Source: Anaerolineales bacterium (GTDB taxonomy: Bacteria > Chloroflexota > Anaerolineae > Anaerolineales > Villigracilaceae). From it: a DNA stretch of 10,550 nucleotides. Position numbers and translations under genes: made by a program. This document shows, in pieces, positions 3-9,750 of this stretch (the first letter of the stretch is position 1; every line of letters starts with the position of its first letter). The notes beneath the pieces are model-generated. The model did no database searches. It had not been told where the DNA came from and saw only the letters and a list, made by a program, of their open reading frames with translations. Where the stretch lies: the NCBI GenBank assembly GCA_028689195.1, contig JAQTWR010000043.1, forward strand, positions 1,849 to 12,398. The letters are read 5' to 3'.

Positions 3-3000
3 TGGGACGGGTCAGTTTGGCAAAATATTGTCACCAGATTGAACGACTTCAACAATCCGCCGGCTGAAACCTACGACATCTCGACGTACGCCAACGCAAA
101 CACAAAAGTTCGCTTCCGCGGCACATCAAACGCTACAGGCGAAACCGCTTATGTAACGTTGGCAAGCGTCACTTACGATGATTTCGCGACCGCGTCTGGC
201 GCTACGCATACGCCGCCCAACATCGTTCAGGCAGCCGACAACTACGACCTTGCGGCTGGCGCGTCCATGACCGTTAACTATCAAGTAACCGTAGCAAACA
301 CGATACCCGCCGGACAAATGAACATCGTCAACACCGCGACGGTCACAAGCGTGGAACAACTCACGCCGCTGACCAGTTCCGCAGTCATACATCCGATTGC
401 AAAAAACTACGGACACCTGCCCGACTCTTACACGGGTATGAACTTGATCGCCGACGGCGGCGCGTCTCACATCACCTCGACAACCATAAAACTCGGCGCG
501 ACAGTACCTATTGAACCGGATGGAATCAACAACCCGACATTCACAGAAGACGCCGCTTACGACAACGGCGTAACGCCAACCGGCACATGGAGATACGGAC
601 CTCTCGCCTCAGGCAACGGCGGCTCGGTAACTGTAGACGTCACCTGCCCCACCAGCTCGTGCTACCTCGCCGCATGGATTGATTGGGACAACGACAACGC
701 CTTCGGCGGCGACCAGATTATCGGTCAAACGGTGGGCAACGGCACGGGGCAAACCATCAATTTCGATATTCCGGGCGGCACGCCGGGCAATTCAATCAAC
801 GGCGCTTTCTATGTCCGCTTCCGATTGTACGCATCAGCGCCGGACGCCGATAGTCCAAACGGAGAAGCGCTCACGGGCGGCGTTGCAACGATAGGCGAAG
901 TGGAAGAATATAGATGGGGCTTCGTCAACGGCACGCCCACCCCTGTGACCGTAGCCTACTTCCGCGCGGAACAGCAGGGCGGAAGCGTTGACTTTGAATG
1001 GTCAACCGTCACCGAAACCGGCAACGTCGGATTTAATTTATACGTCCAGGATCAAGACGGCAAACTGACGCGAATCAACGACGAATTGATTCCGTCTCAT
1101 GTTGTCGATTCGTTGGAGCGTCAAGATTACGCGTACAGCGCCTCCGCAAATGGAGAGACTTTCTACATCGAAGACGTCAGCGTCTTCAACGAAACGCGCC
1201 GACATGGACCCTTCCAAATCGGCGAAACATACGGCGAACGCGCCGAGATGGAAAAAATCAATCAGGCTGCCATAGGACTTGAACTGCAAGGCAAATCCAG
1301 CGAACGCCAGACGCAACTTAAACGGGAGATGGAAATTCCCGCGGCGGCGTACCAAACTCCAGAGTTGGAAGCCGCGTCCGGTTTGCGGAGTCAACTCGAG
1401 GCGCAGCCCGTATCGTCAGCCAATCTGCAATTAACATCCACGCTTAATGTCAAAGTGCGCCAGACGGGCATGTACCGCCTGACGTATGGAATGCTGCGAA
1501 ATGCCGGACTCGACCTCGACGGCGTGCCGGTCGCCAACATCACGCTCACAAATCGCGGACGCTTTACGCCCATATTCATCCAAGGGCAAAGCGACGCGAA
1601 TCTGCGCGATAAATTCGGCGCGGGGGCGTACATCGAATTCTACGGGCAGGCGTTGGATACCCTCTACACCGACACAAATATCTACACGGTGCAAGTCAGC
1701 GCGACGCCCACGCCCCGCATTCCAAGAGTTAGCGGCGCGCCGAAAGCAAATCCGCTGCCCGCGTCCTTCAACGAAACGGTGAAGGTGAATAATCAGCGCG
1801 CGTTCAGTTCGTCCGCGCCCGGCGCCGACCCCTGGTACGATACCAGAATGTTCGCCCTAGCGGATACCGCCGATACCACTTACACGCACGACTGGAGTTA
1901 CCCCTTCCAAGTGACTGGGTTGGCGAATACTTCAACGCCTCAAACGCTCACTTTGGTCGTTTGGGGAATGACGGATTGGCCCTCGGCAAATCCAGACCAC
2001 CATGTAAAGGTCAGCGTCAATGGAACCGCCGTAGCCGACGAAACCTTTAACGGCACGGTAGAAAAGGTCATAAAGGTCACGCTGCCCGCCGGCACGCTGC
2101 ACGAAGGAGAAAACACGCTTCAAATCAACGTGCCTTGCGATCTCGGCGTAAGTTACGACATCGTAAATCTGGATAAATTTGCGGTCGCCTACCCGCGCCG
2201 CTATCAAGCGCGGAATGGACGACTTGAGTTTACAGCCGCAGGCAAAGTCTTTAGGGTACTCAACCTGCCCGATAAAAATGTCGAAGTCTACCGCATAGAT
2301 AGAAAGGGCATTGTCCGCCTTACGCAACTAAAAGTTATCCCCACCGGCAAAACCTTTGCCGTTGCCTTTGCCGGCACAAATACGCCAGCAAGGTATATCG
2401 TCACTTCGGCTAGGAAGTTGTATCTTCCCGCGCTGGAAGCGACGCGCCTTACCGCGAACTTGAATCAGCCCGCGCAGTATCTCGTCATTTCTCACCCCGA
2501 TTTCATCAGCAGACTGCAACCGCTCATTACGGCGCGTCAGGCGCAGGGACTTACCGTCAGCGTGGTGGATGTGAACGACATATACGCGCAGTACGGCTAC
2601 GGAATCTTCACCCCGAACGCGATTAAGTCATACATCGCCTACGCCAAGCAAAATCTCGGCGTTGAATATGTCCTGCTCGTTGGCGGAGATACTTACGACT
2701 ATCGCAACTTCTTGGGCATAAACAGCGTTAGTTTCATTCCTTCGCTCTACGCCGCGACGGGCAGCCCATACGCAAGATTCGCCCCCGTAGACCCGTTGTA
2801 CGCGGACGTAAACAACGACAACGTACCCGACCTGGCAATTGGGCGCTTCCCGGTACGCACATCGGCTGAATTAGACCTAATGGTCAACAAGACGCTGGCG
2901 TACGCCGCGAAAGATTACGCGCGCACCGCCGCCTTCGCCTCAGACAAATTCGACGGGATCGTATCCTTCAAAGACATCAGCAACGGATTATCCGCGGGGC

Positions 3001-3506
3001 TGCCCGTCGGCTGGTCGGCGGAGAACTTCCATTTAGACGACGTTCCCATGGCAACCGCCCAGAGTCAACTAATCGCGGCGATGAATAGAGGCGTTTCGCT
3101 GGTCACATACACGGGACATTCAGGACCTACCGTATGGTCGCTGGGATTGTTCGACATGACCAAAGCCGCAGCCTTAACCAATTACGGACGCCCCTTCGCA
3201 GCCGTTCAATGGGGCTGCTGGAATACCTATTATGTAGACCCGAAAAACAATTATCTTGTACAGAGTTTGCTGTTCTCAGGAGACAACGGCGCCGCCGCAG
3301 TATTTGGAGCGGTGACCGTCACCGATTCAACTTCCGAACAATTGCTTGGAAACGCGCTCACGCCGCGCCTAACCGCGACAGGCGCGCCGATGGGCAAAGC
3401 CTTGCTGGAAGCGAAACAAGAACTGGCGCAAACTCATCCAAACATGCTGGACGTGCTGCTCGGCTGGACTCTCATGGGAGACCCCGCGCTGGTAGTCGAA
3501 CCTTAA
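3..3506 (+). CDS. Secreted multidomain C25 (gingipain-type) cysteine peptidase, 5' partial
   Basis: The reading frame is open to the left edge (first full codon at 3), so the N-terminus and signal peptide are missing; the TTG at 39 is just an internal codon. Residues counted from position 3: ~1-60 look like the end of a beta-sandwich binding module; ~65-135 resemble a DUF11-type repeat (NYQVTVANTIPAGQ); ~140-307 form a GEVED module (DWDNDNAFGG, then GEVEEYRW at 298); ~317-410 look like a fibronectin-III-type module (VAYFRAEQQ, FEWSTVTETGNVGFNLYV); ~480-800 form a beta-rich region that usually precedes the peptidase. The C25 domain fills the C-terminal third: VLLVGGDTYDYRNF (GG at 894), DPLYADVNNDNVPDLAIGRFPV (930-951), His1039 in YTGHSGP and Cys1072 in QWGCW. 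The His-Cys spacing of 33 equals that of the RgpB dyad (His211/Cys244, from memory). It ends at LLGWTLMGDPALVVEP without a sorting domain. The likely role is extracellular proteolysis, substrate unknown. The hairpin downstream separates it from the lasso genes. Confidence 0.88.
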   Translation, partial: WDGSVWQNIVTRLNDFNNPPAETYDISTYANANTKVRFRGTSNATGETAYVTLASVTYDDFATASGATHTPPNIVQAADNYDLAAGASMTVNYQVTVANTIPAGQMNIVNTATVTSVEQLTPLTSSAVIHPIAKNYGHLPDSYTGMNLIADGGASHITSTTIKLGATVPIEPDGINNPTFTEDAAYDNGVTPTGTWRYGPLASGNGGSVTVDVTCPTSSCYLAAWIDWDNDNAFGGDQIIGQTVGNGTGQTINFDIPGGTPGNSINGAFYVRFRLYASAPDADSPNGEALTGGVATIGEVEEYRWGFVNGTPTPVTVAYFRAEQQGGSVDFEWSTVTETGNVGFNLYVQDQDGKLTRINDELIPSHVVDSLERQDYAYSASANGETFYIEDVSVFNETRRHGPFQIGETYGERAEMEKINQAAIGLELQGKSSERQTQLKREMEIPAAAYQTPELEAASGLRSQLEAQPVSSANLQLTSTLNVKVRQTGMYRLTYGMLRNAGLDLDGVPVANITLTNRGRFTPIFIQGQSDANLRDKFGAGAYIEFYGQALDTLYTDTNIYTVQVSATPTPRIPRVSGAPKANPLPASFNETVKVNNQRAFSSSAPGADPWYDTRMFALADTADTTYTHDWSYPFQVTGLANTSTPQTLTLVVWGMTDWPSANPDHHVKVSVNGTAVADETFNGTVEKVIKVTLPAGTLHEGENTLQINVPCDLGVSYDIVNLDKFAVAYPRRYQARNGRLEFTAAGKVFRVLNLPDKNVEVYRIDRKGIVRLTQLKVIPTGKTFAVAFAGTNTPARYIVTSARKLYLPALEATRLTANLNQPAQYLVISHPDFISRLQPLITARQAQGLTVSVVDVNDIYAQYGYGIFTPNAIKSYIAYAKQNLGVEYVLLVGGDTYDYRNFLGINSVSFIPSLYAATGSPYARFAPVDPLYADVNNDNVPDLAIGRFPVRTSAELDLMVNKTLAYAAKDYARTAAFASDKFDGIVSFKDISNGLSAGLPVGWSAENFHLDDVPMATAQSQLIAAMNRGVSLVTYTGHSGPTVWSLGLFDMTKAAALTNYGRPFAAVQWGCWNTYYVDPKNNYLVQSLLFSGDNGAAAVFGAVTVTDSTSEQLLGNALTPRLTATGAPMGKALLEAKQELAQTHPNMLDVLLGWTLMGDPALVVEP

Positions 3507-3516
3507 TAAATCAAAA

Positions 3517-3549
3517 AGCCCCTAAGGGTTTGATAAACCTTTAGGGGCT
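3517..3549. terminator. 15-bp stem-loop between the peptidase gene and the lasso cluster
   Basis: The arms AGCCCCTAAGGGTTT (3517-3531) and AAACCTTTAGGGGCT (3535-3549) pair over 15 bp with one G-U wobble around a GAT loop. The stem starts 10 nt after the peptidase stop, where a terminator is expected. On the + strand, however, the stem is followed by GAAGGAAATGA, not by a T run. The T-rich tract (TTTTTGATTTATT) lies beyond the stem on the other strand. It is therefore a textbook intrinsic terminator only for minus-strand transcription. On the + strand it could be a weak terminator, an mRNA 3'-end or processing element, or a 5' leader hairpin of the lasso transcript. Confidence 0.6.
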
Positions 3550-3560
3550 GAAGGAAATGA

Positions 3561-5378
3561 TTGAGCGCTTTCGCCGTCATTTACGATGCAAATCCGTTGG
3601 AGAACCCCGGCGCGCTTCATAGAATCATGGAACGCCTCAATCATCGCGGTCCCGACGGAAGCAGTTTTGTCTTTGCGAAAAACGTCGCCATGGGACATTG
3701 GCGCTTCTGGACGACTCCCGAAGAAGTCGGCGAGCGCCAGCCTTTAGAGTTGCGCGGCTTGCCGTTCAAAATTGTCCTCGACGGAAGGATTGACAACCGC
3801 GAAGAATTATTTGCGAAGTTGAACCTCTCGCCCGCCGAAGGCAAAACGCTCTCAGACGCCGCGCTGATCTTACGCGCGTATGACCGCTGGCGCGAAGAAT
3901 GTTTCCAATATTTTGTCGGCGAATTCGCGCTCGCGATATTCGACGAACAGCGCGGCGAACTCGTCTGCGTCCGCGACCAACTTGGAGACCGCACATTATT
4001 CTACGCCAACGGGAACGCGCAAACGATCGTCGCTTCAGAACCCTGGGCAATCGCCGCCGTAAACGACGCAAAACCAGATTTGAACGAAAGCGCCGTCGCG
4101 CATTACTTCGCGCTGAAAGCGCCCGAAAACGGACAAACGCTCTTTAATAACATCTACGAACTATTGCCCGCGCACGTCATGGTCGTCTCCAAAACCGCGC
4201 GCCGAATTCGGCGGTACTGGCAGCCTGACCCGCAAAAGAAAATTCGCTACAAAACGGACGAGGAGTACGCCGCGCATTTTCTCGCGCTATTGGAAGAGAG
4301 CGTCCGCTGCCGAATGCGCTCGAACGCGCCCATCGGAATTTTGATGAGCGGAGGACTGGACTCCACGTCGGTTGCCAGCATTGCGGCGCGTAAGATAAAA
4401 CCCGAAGCGCTTACCGCCATCTCCTACGTTTTCGACGAACTGACGGACTGCGACGAAAGGCAATATATCAACGCGGTGAAGGCGCAATGGAATACGCGCT
4501 CGATTCAAATTCCATGCGACGACGCGTATCCTTATAAAGATTGGGCGAACTGGCGGCGCAACCCGAATCATCCCGAAGGAAATCCCTACCGCCTGCTCAA
4601 AGAACGCGCTTATCAACGCGCAAACAACGAGGGGGTGCGCGTGCTGCTCACCGGCGGATTTGGCGACCACTTGTACGATGGCGCAGAAGATTGGATGGCT
4701 GACTTGATTGAAGACGGACGACTAATGCAAGCCGCGCAGGGATTTGCCTATCATGTCCGCGCGTTTGGATTGCGCCGCTCCCTCGCGGCAAAATCAACGC
4801 GGCGAGCGGCAAGGCGCGCGCTGGATCAACTCCCCGGCGGCAAACGCTTACGCGGAAAAGCCACCGCCGCGCCCTGGCTAACGCCATTTTCAATCCGCAG
4901 CATGGATAATCAATCCGGCGCATGGCTCGATCCCGCTTTTGCGACGAAAGAAAATTTGCTGGGATTGATCGCCGCGCAAAACGGCACAGGCGATACGTTC
5001 GGCGCAAGCCGCCACGCAATCGAACTCCGTCACCCATACCGCGACCGCCGCCTAGTCGAATTTGCGCTGGCGCTGCCGGCATATCAATTTTATTATCGCG
5101 GCGTTCATAAATATATTCTGCGCGTCGCCATGCAGGGAATTTTGCCCGAAATAATCCGCGCGCGCAGCCAGCCTTCTTCGCTCATATCGCTGTTCTTTCG
5201 CGGGGTCGAGCGCGAAAAAAATCTTCTGGAAGGGTATTTTCAAAACCCAAACGCGAACTGGCGCAAGTTTGTAAAAGCGGATTGGCTCTCGAGCCGATGG
5301 AACATTCCCGTCACGCCCGAAAAAGACGGACCCGAGGCATTAATTTCCTGGTTATGCGCTTCATACGAAGCATGGTAA
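3561..5378 (+). CDS. Lasso peptide macrolactam synthetase (asparagine-synthetase-like cyclase, C protein)
   Basis: A 605-aa protein with the two-domain layout of class B asparagine synthetase. An N-terminal amidotransferase-like fold covers ~1-200 (NHRGPDG at 27-33, LDGRIDNREEL at 73-83, GEFALAIFDEQRGELVCVRDQLG at ~119-141). A C-terminal ATP-pyrophosphatase domain follows, with the P-loop SGGLDSTS at 263-270, LLTGGFGDHL at 362-371 and the C-terminal block RHPYRDRRLVEFALALP and KYILRVAMQGILPEIIRAR. The catalytic Cys2 of true glutamine-dependent asparagine synthetases is replaced by Ser2 (MSAFAV), so ammonia release from glutamine is unlikely. That, plus the adjacent precursor, B1 and B2 genes, identifies it as the enzyme that adenylates the core Asp and closes the ring onto Gly1. 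The start is a TTG with AAGGA (3551-3555) 5 nt upstream; an ATG at 3557 is in another frame and soon meets a stop. This gene sits before the precursor instead of after it. Confidence 0.93.
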   Translation: MSAFAVIYDANPLENPGALHRIMERLNHRGPDGSSFVFAKNVAMGHWRFWTTPEEVGERQPLELRGLPFKIVLDGRIDNREELFAKLNLSPAEGKTLSDAALILRAYDRWREECFQYFVGEFALAIFDEQRGELVCVRDQLGDRTLFYANGNAQTIVASEPWAIAAVNDAKPDLNESAVAHYFALKAPENGQTLFNNIYELLPAHVMVVSKTARRIRRYWQPDPQKKIRYKTDEEYAAHFLALLEESVRCRMRSNAPIGILMSGGLDSTSVASIAARKIKPEALTAISYVFDELTDCDERQYINAVKAQWNTRSIQIPCDDAYPYKDWANWRRNPNHPEGNPYRLLKERAYQRANNEGVRVLLTGGFGDHLYDGAEDWMADLIEDGRLMQAAQGFAYHVRAFGLRRSLAAKSTRRAARRALDQLPGGKRLRGKATAAPWLTPFSIRSMDNQSGAWLDPAFATKENLLGLIAAQNGTGDTFGASRHAIELRHPYRDRRLVEFALALPAYQFYYRGVHKYILRVAMQGILPEIIRARSQPSSLISLFFRGVEREKNLLEGYFQNPNANWRKFVKADWLSSRWNIPVTPEKDGPEALISWLCASYEAW

Positions 5379-5401: not shown

Positions 5402-5611
5402 ATGACAAATCATAATGAAATACAAACTAACGCCGAAATCGCCCCTGCAATGGAAAACAACGAAGAGCAAATCCGCAAACCGTATTGCAAGCCATTACTG
5501 GAAGACCTGGGCGATTTACGCGCGCTGACCCTGGGCGGCTCTCCGGGCTGCGGCGACAGCGGCGCGAACATCGGCATTCAAGCCCCGTGGGGCGGCGGCT
5601 CTATCTGCTAA
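5402..5611 (+). CDS. Lasso peptide precursor (A), BI-32169-like two-cysteine core
   Basis: A 69-aa peptide. Residues 1-44 are a hydrophilic leader containing the lasso recognition motif Y28-x2-P31-x-L33 followed by L36-G37 and Thr43 at the penultimate leader position (YCKPLLEDLGDLRALTL), the hallmark read by B1 and B2. Cleavage after Leu44 gives a 25-residue, Gly-rich core that starts GGSPGCGDSG and ends QAPWGGGSIC. Gly1 is the canonical N-terminal residue, and Asp8 is the only acidic residue of the core, so an 8-residue macrolactam ring is predicted. Cys6 is inside the ring and Cys25 is the last residue, allowing a ring-to-tail disulfide as in the class III peptide BI-32169 (Cys6-Cys19, C-terminal Cys). 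The frame is open upstream to an ATG at 5282 inside the cyclase gene, but the Shine-Dalgarno and family length favour 5402. A third cysteine, Cys29, lies unusually within the leader motif. Confidence 0.93.
   Translation: MTNHNEIQTNAEIAPAMENNEEQIRKPYCKPLLEDLGDLRALTLGGSPGCGDSGANIGIQAPWGGGSIC
5534..5608 (+). other. Predicted mature lasso core region
   Basis: Codons 45-69 of the precursor. Composition read from the sequence: Gly9, Ser3, Ile3, Pro2, Ala2, Cys2, and one each of Asp, Asn, Gln and Trp. With loss of one water (Gly1-Asp8 amide) and two hydrogens (Cys6-Cys25 disulfide) I calculate a neutral monoisotopic mass of about 2196.93 Da. The tail (residues 9-25) holds Trp19 as its only aromatic residue. 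Cleavage site and ring size are predicted from the Thr(-2) rule and the Asp position, not observed. Confidence 0.8.
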
Positions 5612-5614
5612 TCT

Positions 5615-6460
5615 ATGCCGCGCTACCGCCTCGCCGCGCAGGACTTTCATTTCGCGCATCCTATCGCTGAATTGGAATCTTTTGAAACCGCGCGCGAGGC
5701 GGATGGCGAATCCGTTCTGTTTACGATGGATTCGCTTGATGAAAAAACGCCAATCGCGCGCGCAGAAGGATGGGTGGGCGGAGCGCAGCGCATCGTGGAA
5801 ACATACGATACGCCGCGCGGAATCCTTTTGAAGGTCGAAGGAGGCGGCGCGTTCTTCATCAATCGAGGCGGAGAAATCATCGGCGCGCAGAATCCGAATC
5901 AACTTGACCGCGAAATCATCCTCGGTCCCGCCCTGGTATTGGCGTTGGCGCAGCGCGGCGTATGGAGTCTTCACGCCAGCGCCGCAACGTACAAAGAAAA
6001 TTGTTTTGCGTTTCTCGGCGAATCGGGACAGGGCAAATCCACGCTTGCCGCGTATCTATCTCAAAGCGCGGGATGGCGTTTGGTCGCAGACGACATCCTG
6101 CCGATAGAAATGGAATCGAAAACCGTCAACGCGCTGCCGCATTTTCCGCAACTTAAATTACCGCCAAACGCGCAGCCCGGCGCCGACCTGCCCGAACGCA
6201 TCCCATTGAAGTACGTCTGCGCGCTCGCGGACGTTGAAGCAAACCACGCGCCCGAATTGCAAATCCTCCCGACCGCGCAAGCCGTTCAAGTTTTGCTCGG
6301 TCACACTGCGGGAACGCGCATGTTCAACGCGGCGGCGCTGGCAAAGCATTTGGAATTCTCGACGCAAGCCGCAAAACAAATTTCGGCGCGCCGTTTGAAT
6401 TATCCGCATCGCCGCGACGCGCTGCCGCTCATCAAAGATTTTTTAGAAACGCTATGCTGA
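5615..6460 (+). CDS. HPr-kinase-like lasso tailoring kinase (K), HprK/COG1493-type
   Basis: A 281-aa protein. The diagnostic block is LHASAATYKENCFAF, then Walker A GESGQGKST (135-143), then RLVADD (Asp159-Asp160). This reproduces the order His, Walker A, RLVADD of HPr kinase/phosphorylase. The ~115 residues before it are a poorly conserved N-terminal part, as in stand-alone HprK-like proteins outside the PTS. In paeninodin-type clusters such proteins (PadeK, ThcoK) phosphorylate the C-terminal serine of the lasso precursor; this is the most likely family role. Here the precursor ends Ser67-Ile68-Cys69, so the target would have to be the serine two residues from the end (core Ser23), another core serine (3 or 9), or something else. 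It starts 3 nt after the precursor stop with no clear Shine-Dalgarno, implying translational coupling and lower output than the precursor. Family call is firm; activity on the peptide is inference. Confidence 0.85.
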   Translation: MPRYRLAAQDFHFAHPIAELESFETAREADGESVLFTMDSLDEKTPIARAEGWVGGAQRIVETYDTPRGILLKVEGGGAFFINRGGEIIGAQNPNQLDREIILGPALVLALAQRGVWSLHASAATYKENCFAFLGESGQGKSTLAAYLSQSAGWRLVADDILPIEMESKTVNALPHFPQLKLPPNAQPGADLPERIPLKYVCALADVEANHAPELQILPTAQAVQVLLGHTAGTRMFNAAALAKHLEFSTQAAKQISARRLNYPHRRDALPLIKDFLETLC

Positions 6461-6735
6461 CTCTCGACGCAATTTTACGCATCCCCGCCCACGTTTCATT
6501 TTCCGTCGTCGGCGAAGACGCTTTCCTTTTGAATGCGCAAACCCACAAATATTACGGGCTTGAAAAAGTCGGCGCGCGTTTGTGGCAAATTTTAATCGAG
6601 GGCAAATCGTTGAGCGAAGCGCATCAAACGCTTTTGAGCGAATACAACGTCGCCGCAGACGAACTGGAGCGGGATATACTTGATCTGGTCAAACGCCTGC
6701 AAGAGCAAGAACTTGTCGAAGTCATTGAAGCGTAA
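6454..6735 (+). CDS. PqqD-like lasso leader-binding protein (B1, RRE domain)
   Basis: A 93-aa single-domain protein of PqqD fold: N-terminal beta strands with ...FSVVGEDAFLLNAQTHKYYGLEKVGARLWQIL, followed by helices (SLSEAHQTLLSEYNVAADELERDILDLVKRLQEQELV). The pattern 'YYGLEKVGARLW...L.EG.S..E....L..EY.V....L..D....L..L.E..L' is typical of discrete RiPP recognition elements. In lasso clusters this protein binds the Y-x2-P-x-L leader motif and delivers the precursor to B2 and the cyclase. Its ATG overlaps the kinase stop by 7 nt (6454-6460), so the two are translationally coupled. PqqD itself would need PQQ genes, which are absent. Confidence 0.92.
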   Translation: MLTLDAILRIPAHVSFSVVGEDAFLLNAQTHKYYGLEKVGARLWQILIEGKSLSEAHQTLLSEYNVAADELERDILDLVKRLQEQELVEVIEA

Positions 6736-7174
6736 AGCGCAACTTGCGCGAGGATTTTCATTATCGGATTGGAGCGCGCTGATCGAGGCGTGGCTGCGAT
6801 TACTTTACTACCGCCTCGCGCTTCTCGCGGTAAACTACCAACGGTTGAAAGAATCCACGCGGCGAATAGAAAACCAATCCTCTGAGTTATCCCTCCCGCG
6901 CGCGCGGAAAATCGAACGGCTGGTTGGGTACGCCGCGCGGCTGCATCTCATCCCCATGACCTGCCTCGACAAATCGCTCGCGCTGCAAAGCATGTTGAGC
7001 AGGCGCAAAATCGCGGCGCAAATCAAAATCGGCGCGCAAAAAATCGAGGGGACGCTTTACGCCCACGCATGGGTGGAAGTGAATGGAAAACCCATCGGCG
7101 AGGCGGAAGATGTTTCCAAAAGATTCTCCGCGCTGGAATCCGTCGCTGAAATCACAAACCGTCAATTGATATAG
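6725..7174 (+). CDS. Lasso leader peptidase (B2, transglutaminase-like cysteine protease)
   Basis: About 149 aa, the size expected for a stand-alone B2 (C-terminal half of McjB). Catalytic Cys80 lies in PMTCLDKSLALQSMLSRR and His114 in YAHAWVEVNG, matching the family pattern 'C-L-x-x-S-L...L' followed by 'H-A-W-V-E-x-x-G'; an acidic residue in GEAED probably completes the triad. It removes the leader after Thr43-Leu44 of the precursor, guided by B1. The N-terminal helices (LSDWSALIEAWLRLLYYRLALLAVNYQRL) look membrane-associating, as often seen in B2 proteins. The start is uncertain: TTG at 6725 gives an 11-nt overlap with B1 and was chosen, while an ATG at 6680 would add 15 unlikely residues read out of frame across B1. 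Confidence 0.9.
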   Translation: MKRKAQLARGFSLSDWSALIEAWLRLLYYRLALLAVNYQRLKESTRRIENQSSELSLPRARKIERLVGYAARLHLIPMTCLDKSLALQSMLSRRKIAAQIKIGAQKIEGTLYAHAWVEVNGKPIGEAEDVSKRFSALESVAEITNRQLI

Positions 7175-7185
7175 AGGCTCGGCGT

Positions 7186-9750
7186 ATGCCGTCCGAAAAC
7201 AAGCAACTCGAAACGCTAAAATATATTCTCGAAAACAGCCTGCATCCCGAGGTTCTCGACTCGCATCCCTGGACAAAAAGCCTGGTCGCGCTCGAGGCGG
7301 CGACGGACAACCCCGAACTGGAAGGCAAAACGGCGGGACAGCAACTTGTGATTGCCGTCGCGAAATTTTTTACACAGATGACTCCCGCCACCCCGCCGAG
7401 GCGCGGCAAACGGCTGGACACAAATTGGGGCGCATTCGGACTCCTTGCCGCGCAATATTTTGCGCCGCTCATTTTTGGCGCGCCGGTTCCCGTCTCGCTC
7501 CGCGACGCATGGGGGCGCATTGACCAGAGCATTTTGCTTTTTGTTTTCGGCAAAACGGACGGCGCGATTCCGCAAGAGAAAAAAGACGCATACAAATTAG
7601 TCGGCGGCGAGTTGGAAGCGGCGGCGAACAGCACATTGAGCGATTGGCACAGAAAAGGTTTGCAACAACTGACCGATGCGCTCATGGCGCGCGAACGTTT
7701 TTTATCCGAGTCGCTGGGCGTTCCCGCAGTCATCGCATCTGCGCCAAACCGCGCAAGCCGTTCGCCGAGGACGCGCGCTGGCGCGAAGAAACCGCAAGCG
7801 TCAAATAAGCGGTGGCGCATATTCCTGTTCGCGTCCATTCTTATTGGATTGGCGCTGATCGTCGTCGGCGGATTCAAAGCAGGCAAGGTTTACAACCTGA
7901 CTCGCGTAGTGCGCGCGGACGCGACCTACATTCAAAAATTAATTTCAGAACCCGCGCCGCGCTTGGGAAAATTCAAAAACATCGGCTCTGGGATTTCGAT
8001 ATTAAGAAAAGATTTTGCCGCGCTCAAAAACGAAACGCAGCCTTTTTTTTGGACAGGCTCGCTTTTGAAAGGATTGCCCAATCGCGGCGGCGACCTTGCC
8101 GCGATTGAAGACCTCGCAACCCTCGCGGATTCCCTGCTCGTCTCCGCCGATCTAACTTATCAAACGATAGCGCCCCTTGTAGATAAGGGCGATCTTTCGG
8201 CAGTCAATCCAACGCGATTAACCGAGTTTTTGAAACAAAACCAGCCGCGATTGCAGCGGGCGCAGCAGTCCTTAAAGCAAGCCGAAGAAGCCCGCGCCCG
8301 ATTGAAGGTCGAAACCCTATCGCCTGAAGTACGCGACCTCATTTTGAACGACGCAGACCCGCTTATGCGGCTTATGCAAGACGGCTTAACCGTCGCCGTG
8401 GAATTGCCGCGCATTATGGGCGCAACCGACGAAGGTCCAAAGACCTATTTGTTTTTGGTCGAAAACGAAGACGAGCTGCGCCCCACCGGGGGGTTCATTA
8501 CTGCGGCAAGCACAATTCTCGTGAAAGACGGGAACATCAGCAATTTGAAATTTGTGAACTCCGGCGATTTGGACAACTGGCAGAAAATATATCCCGCCGC
8601 GCCGTGGCAACTCAAGGAGTATATGAACAGCCCCGTTCTTGTATTCCGCGACGCAAATTGGTTCACAAATTATCCCACCACCGCGCTGTACGCGGAGTAT
8701 TTATATTCCTACGCCAGCGATCATTCAGTGGACGGCGTCATCGCGTTTGATCAGCGCTTGTTAATCGAAATACTAACCGCGACGGGACCAATCGCGGTGG
8801 CGGGCGCGTCTCATCCTGTGGACGCGAAGAATGTCGCCCAATATATGCGCGAATCGAAAAAGCCCGACGCGCAGCAAGCCCCCTCTGCGGATTGGGACAA
8901 CAAAGCCTTTTTGAACAAGATCGCCTACGCGCTGATCGAAAAAATATTCAGCGGCGACGTTCAATGGGAAACCATCTCCGCAACGCTGGCGCGGGCGTTG
9001 AACGAACATCACATCCTGCTGCAAGTGGACAACCCCGATATGACCGCGCTTTTGGCGCGCTATCATTGGGACGGCGCGGTACAAGTTGGCGCGGGCGATT
9101 TTCTCATGGCGGTAGACTCGAATATCGGGTTTAACAAGACCAACACGGTGGTCGAATCAAGCGCGGCGTACGACGTGGATTTAACCGACTTATCGCATCC
9201 CATCGGCTCGTTGACTATCGTCCACAAAAATAACGCGAAAGAAAATCTAATCTGCAAGCAGTGGCTGAAAGACAGGCGCAAGGGCGAAGAGAGTTATCCG
9301 ATTACCGATTGTTACTGGAATTACCTGCGGATTTACAAGCCCGCAGGGACAACGCTTATCAGCGCCACGCCGCAAAACGTCCCCGCGATTTGGATGATCA
9401 ATAAGCAAAAAAATCCCGGGCAGGTGGATATTCTCAGCGAGGAAATCAGCGGCGCGCAGGCGTTCGGCACGCTGCAAGTCGTCCCTACGGGTGAAACGCT
9501 GGCGGTCAATTTTGAGTTTGCGCTGCCCGCAAGCATCCTGCAAACGGACGCGAAGCAAACGACCTACGCGCTGAAAGTACAAAAACAACCCGGCACGCTG
9601 GCAACGCCGATCACAATCCGCGCGCATTTGCCGAATAACGCGTCAATCATAAAAACGCCTTCGGGCGCTATTGTGGAAAACAACAGCGTTCTGTATGAAA
9701 CCGACCTCAGAGTAGACCTTATCTTTACGGTCGTTTTTTCGACGCCATAA
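7186..9750 (+). CDS. Membrane-anchored DUF4012 protein with an extra N-terminal cytoplasmic region
   Basis: 854 aa. Residues 1-~180 are a mostly helical region I do not recognise (WGAFGLLAAQYFAPLIFGAP; WGRIDQSILLFVFGK). A basic linker (RSPRTRAGAKK...NKRWR) precedes one membrane helix at ~212-231, so the N-terminus should be cytoplasmic and the rest external. After a helical stretch (~235-400, e.g. LKQNQPRLQRAQQSLKQAEEARARL) comes the DUF4012 hallmark ENEDELRPTGGFI at 426-438, with the domain running to ~700 and a beta-rich tail beyond. DUF4012 proteins have no established biochemical role and are often found near envelope or polysaccharide genes. The ATG is preceded by AGAGG that overlaps the B2 stop codon (gap 11 nt), so it is probably transcribed with the lasso genes. 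Whether it takes part in peptide export, immunity or surface display cannot be told from sequence. A run of 8 T at 8043-8050 leaves the frame intact. Confidence 0.85.
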   Translation: MPSENKQLETLKYILENSLHPEVLDSHPWTKSLVALEAATDNPELEGKTAGQQLVIAVAKFFTQMTPATPPRRGKRLDTNWGAFGLLAAQYFAPLIFGAPVPVSLRDAWGRIDQSILLFVFGKTDGAIPQEKKDAYKLVGGELEAAANSTLSDWHRKGLQQLTDALMARERFLSESLGVPAVIASAPNRASRSPRTRAGAKKPQASNKRWRIFLFASILIGLALIVVGGFKAGKVYNLTRVVRADATYIQKLISEPAPRLGKFKNIGSGISILRKDFAALKNETQPFFWTGSLLKGLPNRGGDLAAIEDLATLADSLLVSADLTYQTIAPLVDKGDLSAVNPTRLTEFLKQNQPRLQRAQQSLKQAEEARARLKVETLSPEVRDLILNDADPLMRLMQDGLTVAVELPRIMGATDEGPKTYLFLVENEDELRPTGGFITAASTILVKDGNISNLKFVNSGDLDNWQKIYPAAPWQLKEYMNSPVLVFRDANWFTNYPTTALYAEYLYSYASDHSVDGVIAFDQRLLIEILTATGPIAVAGASHPVDAKNVAQYMRESKKPDAQQAPSADWDNKAFLNKIAYALIEKIFSGDVQWETISATLARALNEHHILLQVDNPDMTALLARYHWDGAVQVGAGDFLMAVDSNIGFNKTNTVVESSAAYDVDLTDLSHPIGSLTIVHKNNAKENLICKQWLKDRRKGEESYPITDCYWNYLRIYKPAGTTLISATPQNVPAIWMINKQKNPGQVDILSEEISGAQAFGTLQVVPTGETLAVNFEFALPASILQTDAKQTTYALKVQKQPGTLATPITIRAHLPNNASIIKTPSGAIVENNSVLYETDLRVDLIFTVVFSTP

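Follow-up and report, generated by a model that had tools for sequence, protein, structure and literature searches.

A candidate class III lasso peptide with a predicted ring phosphate, encoded behind a predicted secreted C25 protease in Chloroflexota

Class III lasso peptides are defined by one disulfide between ring and tail, and most lasso peptides have, to our knowledge, no known function. The class III members named in reviews are BI-32169 (PMC9266682, PMC13352647, PMC12427821, PMC7549694) and 9401-LP1 (PMC9266682), both from Streptomyces; pseudovenmycin (2025), which stands beside BI-32169 in the references of PMC13352647, may be a further one, and other members, smaller rings included, may exist outside the literature searched. 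BI-32169 (GLPWGCPSDIPGWNTPWAC, with Cys6 and Cys19 bridged according to Table 1 of PMC12427821) has 19 residues and a 9-residue ring. At the time of PMC9266682 the cluster that encodes it had not been identified, so its leader and operon offer no comparison. In 9401-LP1, which has Cys5, Cys18 and Ala1, the disulfide was shown by a gain of 2 Da on treatment with DTT, and the carboxypeptidase product A1-W10 points to a ring closed at Asp9 (PMC5974421). The 9401-LP1 cluster as given in PMC9266682 has no genes beyond A-D.

Two kinds of lasso kinase have been described in PMC10368454. The paeninodin-type kinases (PadeK, ThcoK), encoded inside the lasso operon, modify a C-terminal Ser. In Bradymonas sediminis, the kinase BsfK phosphorylates Ser3 of BsfA, to which a Gly1-Asp8 ring is assigned, with help from B1; according to the same source, the mature BsfA lasso was never detected (PMC10368454).

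The locus compared here with these systems is a window of 10,550 nucleotides, the whole stretch of DNA analysed (G000, contig C30, positions 1849-12398), from a MAG that is 82% complete and consists of 422 contigs. On its + strand, the end of a C25 protein gene is followed by the lasso genes in the order C, A, K, B1 and B2, and then by a DUF4012 protein gene and another ORF:

3..3506, + strand: large protein, C-terminal part with a Peptidase_C25 domain at its end (2340-3503; PF01364, 241.5 bits) and GEVED
3561..5378, + strand: lasso cyclase C, asparagine-synthase-like (PF00733/PF13537), TTG start
5402..5611, + strand: lasso precursor A, 69 aa, ATG start, GAGG ribosome-binding-like motif upstream
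5615..6460, + strand: kinase K (HprK-like), starting 3 bases past A
6454..6735, + strand: B1, PqqD-like leader-binding protein (PF05402; NF033536 under cut-off)
6725..7174 (start approximate), + strand: B2 leader peptidase, transglutaminase-like (PF13471; NF033537 74 bits, cut-off 33)
7186..9750, + strand: DUF4012 protein
9834 to the end of the window, + strand: further ORF

The five lasso genes C-A-K-B1-B2 lie close together or overlap, an operon-like arrangement as in one transcription unit; the start of B2, a TTG overlapping B1, was chosen by the analyst. C, B1 and B2 are all present, B2 scoring above its NCBIfam cut-off and C and B1 being recognised through Pfam (C reached 399.7 bits against the lasso cyclase model NF033535, under its cut-off of 525). 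A preliminary description of this DNA had omitted both the kinase and the gene upstream of C, a predicted secreted C25 (gingipain/PorU-like) protease. The frame of the latter runs on beyond the window to the contig start, which cuts it off, and spans 1783 aa on the contig. The Pfam scan of the window recognised neither an ABC transporter nor a thiol oxidoreductase, and no ABC transporter was found among nine scanned flanking ORFs of relatives. Thus the usual export/immunity gene was not found in these ORFs, and export and oxidation lack candidate genes in the window. A search of the genome contigs for close relatives of the cyclase confirmed none.

It was also found that a strong hairpin without a T-run (3517-3549; 15 bp, -25.3 kcal/mol, z -5.3) lies between the C25 gene and the cyclase; it may separate the expression of the protease from that of the lasso genes. 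The DUF4012 protein gene and the ORF after it hold their position behind the lasso genes in seven further loci (L086, L087, L089, L091, L100, L101, L102).

The core was found where the preliminary description had placed it, inside the ORF with the ATG start, and the precursor is divided as follows:

5402..5533, + strand: leader, 44 aa, Y(-17)xxPxL(-12), T(-2)
5534..5608, + strand: core GGSPGCGDSGANIGIQAPWGGGSIC, 25 aa, predicted ring Gly1-Asp8
5540..5542, + strand: Ser3 codon, predicted phosphorylation site (Ser/Thr3 in family cores; BsfK precedent)
5549..5551, + strand: Cys6 codon, ring half of the predicted disulfide
5555..5557, + strand: Asp8 codon, predicted isopeptide acceptor
5606..5608, + strand: Cys25 codon, C-terminal half of the predicted disulfide

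The leader has Tyr(-17), Pro(-14), Leu(-12), Thr(-2) and Leu(-1), and the spacing of its YxxPxL motif is that described for lasso leaders (PMC10368454); the -2 residue is Ile in BsfA. This motif, a match of the precursor to the NCBIfam lasso leader model NF033521 (20.9 bits, cut-off 19) and the presence of the C, B1 and B2 genes support its identity as a lasso precursor. The core begins with Gly1, and Asp8, within the range of positions 7-9, is its sole Asp or Glu. Cys6 and Cys25 are its sole cysteines, as had been stated; the leader holds one more (precursor residue 29). The likeness to BI-32169 that had been drawn comprises ring Cys6, the terminal Cys and a PW in the tail, and these are found in both, as is Gly1 (PMC12427821, Table 1), but the Trp is 2 residues before the last Cys in BI-32169 and 6 here. 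The window core is longer (25 residues, BI-32169 having 19), and with Asp8 as its only acidic residue, it is predicted to form a ring of 8 residues, one smaller than that of BI-32169, and not one of 9. It shares a ring Cys and a terminal Cys with 9401-LP1, from which it differs in Cys positions and first residue.

The precursor belongs to a large family. The first search returned the window's own protein and 4 relatives, a search with three Cys6 precursors gave 49 proteins (all listed), and a profile retrieved 508 at E<=0.01; since only the 120 best-scoring of these 508 were listed, the sample is biased towards the query. Together, 151 database proteins (the window's own included) and 26 locus-derived precursors made 177 proteins with 164 distinct cores. 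The patterns used for core extraction required Gly1 and Ser/Thr3, at which positions the locus-derived cores are uninformative; all 151 database proteins fitted them. Of the 164 cores, 150 have Asp and 10 have Glu at position 8, and this acidic residue in 160/164 supports the Gly1-Asp8 ring. Within the ring, position 6 varies most. The ring, leader and operon are thus common to a large family whose cores mostly have no Cys or a Cys pair within the tail, so the window core is a variant inside this family and not a relative of BI-32169 that stands by itself.

Two further searches added no precursors: the pattern GSPGCGDxG occurred in 36 stretches of the genome contigs, none of which gave a lasso precursor when read in frame, and one relative precursor searched against plasmids had no match. 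No mention of GGSPG in connection with lasso peptides was found in the literature searched. One database precursor (P0099) is identical to that of locus L048 in a genome of the same genus (G491). In genome G494, a family precursor (L065/L104) has the core GTSTGGGWSLPP..., translated by eye, which keeps Ser3 and has no Asp/Glu at positions 7-9; K, B1, B2 and C25 are present in its neighbourhood, and no cyclase was found in the stretch. Its product is possibly a linear, phosphorylated cousin. Genome G496 has two precursors (L095, L096), each directly behind its own C25 gene, one with K, B1 and B2 but no C nearby and the other without biosynthetic genes nearby. Three tandem lasso precursors with AGGG, GSAG and GGAG cores, and no kinase in the stretch, were seen in L113 (G1052), a cluster of another lasso type.

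The gene directly after A encodes the HPr-kinase-like protein K. In 14 aligned proteins, H120, G135-x2-G-x-GKS/GKST and D159-D160 are invariant. This His, P-loop and Asp-Asp set is that of BsfK, with a step of 15 residues from His to the first Gly in both, and a step from P-loop to Asp-Asp that is one residue off (PMC10368454). Unlike the window operon, the Bsf locus has a nucleotidyltransferase and a transporter (PMC10368454). K itself had no match in Pfam and weak matches, below cut-off, to TIGR04352/TIGR04355, while a profile search of the PDB returned P-loop proteins, PEPCK and one designed protein, and no HPr kinase. K lies downstream of A in 18 of the 20 parsed family loci; in the two exceptions, K is about 6 kb further on (L162) or the precursor is an orphan (L096). 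At core position 3, 161 of the 164 cores have Ser and the other 3 have Thr, Ser/Thr having been required there by the extraction pattern; this position is Ser or Thr in 5 of the 62 lasso peptides in Table 1 of PMC12427821.

As the key residues of K match those of BsfK and Ser/Thr3 is conserved, the product may be phosphorylated at Ser3. The computed masses are 2216.958 (linear, reduced), 2198.947 (lasso, reduced), 2196.932 (lasso with disulfide) and 2276.898 (the same plus one phosphate). The arithmetic behind the mass of 2196.93 Da given earlier is right for an unphosphorylated disulfide lasso, but a phosphorylated product of 2276.90 Da is judged at least as likely. The invariant Ser3 could instead be structural. 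In L106, Ser3 comes without a K in the stretch that was read. There are too few lasso clusters of other types to settle a link between K and Ser3: L110 and L117 have both Ser3 and K, L113 has Ala/Gly3 and no K, L111 has Gly3 and K, and L108 has Ala3, a C-terminal Ser and K.

It is unlikely that K acts on another hydroxyl of the core (Ser9 or Ser23) or, in the paeninodin manner, on a C-terminal Ser. The described kinases other than BsfK do act on a C-terminal Ser (PMC10368454), and the distant cluster L108 has such a residue. However, the window core ends in Cys25, a C-terminal Ser occurs in only 2 of the 164 cores, and position 3 (161 Ser and 3 Thr, with Ser/Thr required by the pattern) is more constant than position 9 (149 Ser and 4 Thr). 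Ser3 is kept here as the predicted site.

The precursor co-occurs closely with the gene upstream of the lasso genes. The GTDB family of the window comprises 152 genomes, of which the precursor profile finds 21. Strong C25 matches (PF01364 >200 bits) occur in 19 of the 152, and all 19 are among the 21 precursor-positive genomes (Fisher p = 3e-22, kinship ignored); in the 131 precursor-negative genomes, the best C25 match was 48.8 bits. The two precursor-positive genomes without a strong match have a C25 fragment at a contig start (G477) or none (G479). Weak or partial matches were seen in 17 further family genomes, G477 included. The C25 gene is upstream of the precursor in 19 of 22 family loci (GCWN-type C25 in 17 of the 20 parsed loci, plus L091 and L104, examined separately), and in G392 the precursor and C25 are on different contigs.

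In a survey of the class (392 genomes), C25 at E<=1e-10 was found in 217, and C25 proteins close to the window copy (>330 bits) in nine. A precursor match is present in eight of these nine; in the ninth (G144), C25 is followed directly by a precursor-like ORF, C and K. A close C25 is lacking in 4 of the 12 class genomes with a precursor match (G311, G571, G572, G636), these matches being weak (best 6e-6); weak precursor matches elsewhere in the order likewise had no close C25. Six C25 loci outside the subfamily (three in G748, and one each in G645, G596 and G569) had no C, K, B1 or B2 nearby, and no C25 was found upstream in L110, L111, L113 and L117, which are clusters of other lasso types; the C25 of L108 is different and lacks GCWN. 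Because these other C25 loci are without lasso genes nearby, and these other lasso types without such a C25, the link appears to be to one C25 subfamily. A link between lasso peptides and C25 or gingipain proteases was not found in the literature searched, outside the scope of which most subscription literature lies.

Large C25 genes linked to this family were recorded in the window (3-3506) and in L084-L097, L099-L101, L104-L107, L118, L068 and L193. In L162 (G064), a single precursor and a single cyclase lie between two C25 genes whose ends are very similar, K following the second C25.

Open frames of 2591-3505 aa hold 11 of the 22 strong C25 matches in the family; the others are in shorter frames, several of which are cut by contig ends. 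Hydrophobic, signal-like N-termini were seen by eye in nine frames, and three scanned relatives contain SdrD_B, SpaA, DUF11, GEVED or DUF7933/DUF7948 domains. The GHS and GCWN motifs, whose His and Cys we take to be the C25 catalytic residues, are kept in every aligned lasso-linked family copy and in L068, L105, L106 and L107. With its PF01364 domain over cut-off and both motifs, the window protein resembles gingipain and PorU, but here the C25 domain comes last in long frames (of up to 3505 aa) with SdrD_B/GEVED-type domains, and lasso genes adjoin it.

What the pairing serves is a matter of weighing. Many lasso peptides act on competitors, and the core anatomy would also suit a class III disulfide lasso without phosphate that is a free-standing antibiotic or signal, the protease gene being a mere neighbour; C25 genes are, moreover, common in the class (the 217 of 392 genomes above). 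This is rather improbable, since K is present in 18 of 20 parsed loci with a hydroxyl at position 3 throughout, and every genome in which the close C25 subfamily was found is lasso-positive. The main alternative to an inhibitor or regulator would be a PorU-like sortase role, in which the C25 domain attaches either the lasso peptide or the large adhesin-like protein of which it is part to an acceptor on the surface, with the lasso as substrate or cap. In its favour, the NCBIfam matches over the C25 domain of three relatives are to PorU-type sortases, and the N-terminal SdrD_B, SpaA, GEVED or DUF7933 domains and signal-like N-termini (seen by eye) would suit such a role. These matches, however, reached 163-175 bits against cut-offs of 420-450, PorU acts in the outer-membrane type IX system (T9SS), and no sorting signal was seen on the lasso peptide, which makes a sortase role doubtful. 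Co-occurrence alone fits an inhibitor, a substrate and mere co-regulation alike. Other pairs of protease and inhibitor genes exist, and by analogy with them, the gene for a stable threaded peptide next to that for a secreted protease points to an inhibitor or regulator.

The cysteines were recounted in the database proteins only, the locus-derived rows including residues upstream of the leader. In 143 distinct cores (one of them cut at the wrong place), 131 have no Cys, 12 have two and none has an odd number. The leaders of the same proteins, serving as internal control, have one Cys in 26 cases and two in 2 (Fisher p = 2e-8, kinship ignored). These even-only counts suggest that the cysteines of the family behave as pairs. 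Among all 164 cores, the 12 with Cys have two each, at positions 6/25 (two cores), 7/23, 14/25, 14/26 (two), 15/26 (two), 15/27, 16/23, 17/20 and 17/23 (one core each where no number is given). Most would thus be tail-tail pairs on the 8-residue ring kind, class IV-like (P0003/L084, P0006, P0011, P0012, P0020, P0032, P0051, P0122, P0130), and three cores would have class III-like ring-tail pairs, P0030 with Cys7 and Cys23 being one.

The other core with Cys6, Asp8, Cys25 and a length of 25 is shared by P0007 and P0054, and the retention of these features despite differing leaders argues against chance. Cys6 occurs in 2 of the 164 cores, both ending in Cys25, and a terminal Cys is found in four (p = 4e-4); being close relatives, the two represent effectively one origin. 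A tree of 19 cyclases did not resolve the place of the Cys types, many family forks in it being open. With exactly two core cysteines, one in the ring and one in the tail, and with family cores holding none or two and never an odd number, a Cys6-Cys25 pair is the natural reading, and the prediction of a class III ring-to-tail disulfide on an 8-residue ring has good though not conclusive support. That the cysteines are instead free, metal-bound or intermolecular, in a threaded class II-like peptide without disulfide, is the least probable of the alternatives considered, for although no oxidoreductase was recognised in the window and single-Cys lasso peptides exist (albusnodin and caulonodin III in Table 1 of PMC12427821), it sits poorly with even-only counts in cores against mostly odd counts in Cys-bearing leaders.

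The explanation that we favour, with somewhat better than even confidence, is a phosphorylated class III lasso peptide in a unit with a C25 protease, acting on or for that protease. B1 would bind the leader, K would phosphorylate the ring Ser3 on the precursor, and B2 would cut after Leu(-1). C would then close the 8-residue ring from Gly1 to the side chain of Asp8 around the tail. The disulfide between Cys6 in the ring and Cys25, the last residue, would form outside the cytoplasm after export, giving the class III topology. In Chloroflexota, the genes of this family would form a unit with the large secreted C25 cysteine protease, and the peptide would act on or for it, most likely inhibiting or regulating it as a compact molecule that resists proteolysis. 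The variable tail and the optional Cys pair may tune its fit to the protease.

A broader reading, which we hold more tentatively and at somewhat less than even confidence, is that the lasso family and a large secreted cysteine protease encoded by the same genome are dedicated partners, the peptide being ring-phosphorylated and having a hypervariable tail (locked in the window peptide by a ring-to-tail disulfide), and the pair being gained and lost as a unit. The lasso peptide would then inhibit, prime or be handled by the C25 protease encoded just upstream.

The biosynthetic logic proposed is known from other systems; what appears new, judging from the sequences compared and the literature searched, is the 8-residue ring in class III, the predicted ring phosphate and the protease link. 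If made as predicted, the product would be a class III lasso peptide on an 8-residue ring, from outside Streptomyces, in which a ring phosphate and a ring-to-tail disulfide occur together. The family offers a natural series on one scaffold, with variants that have no Cys, a tail-tail pair or a ring-tail pair, and its tight co-occurrence with one secreted protease gives it a direct, testable target.
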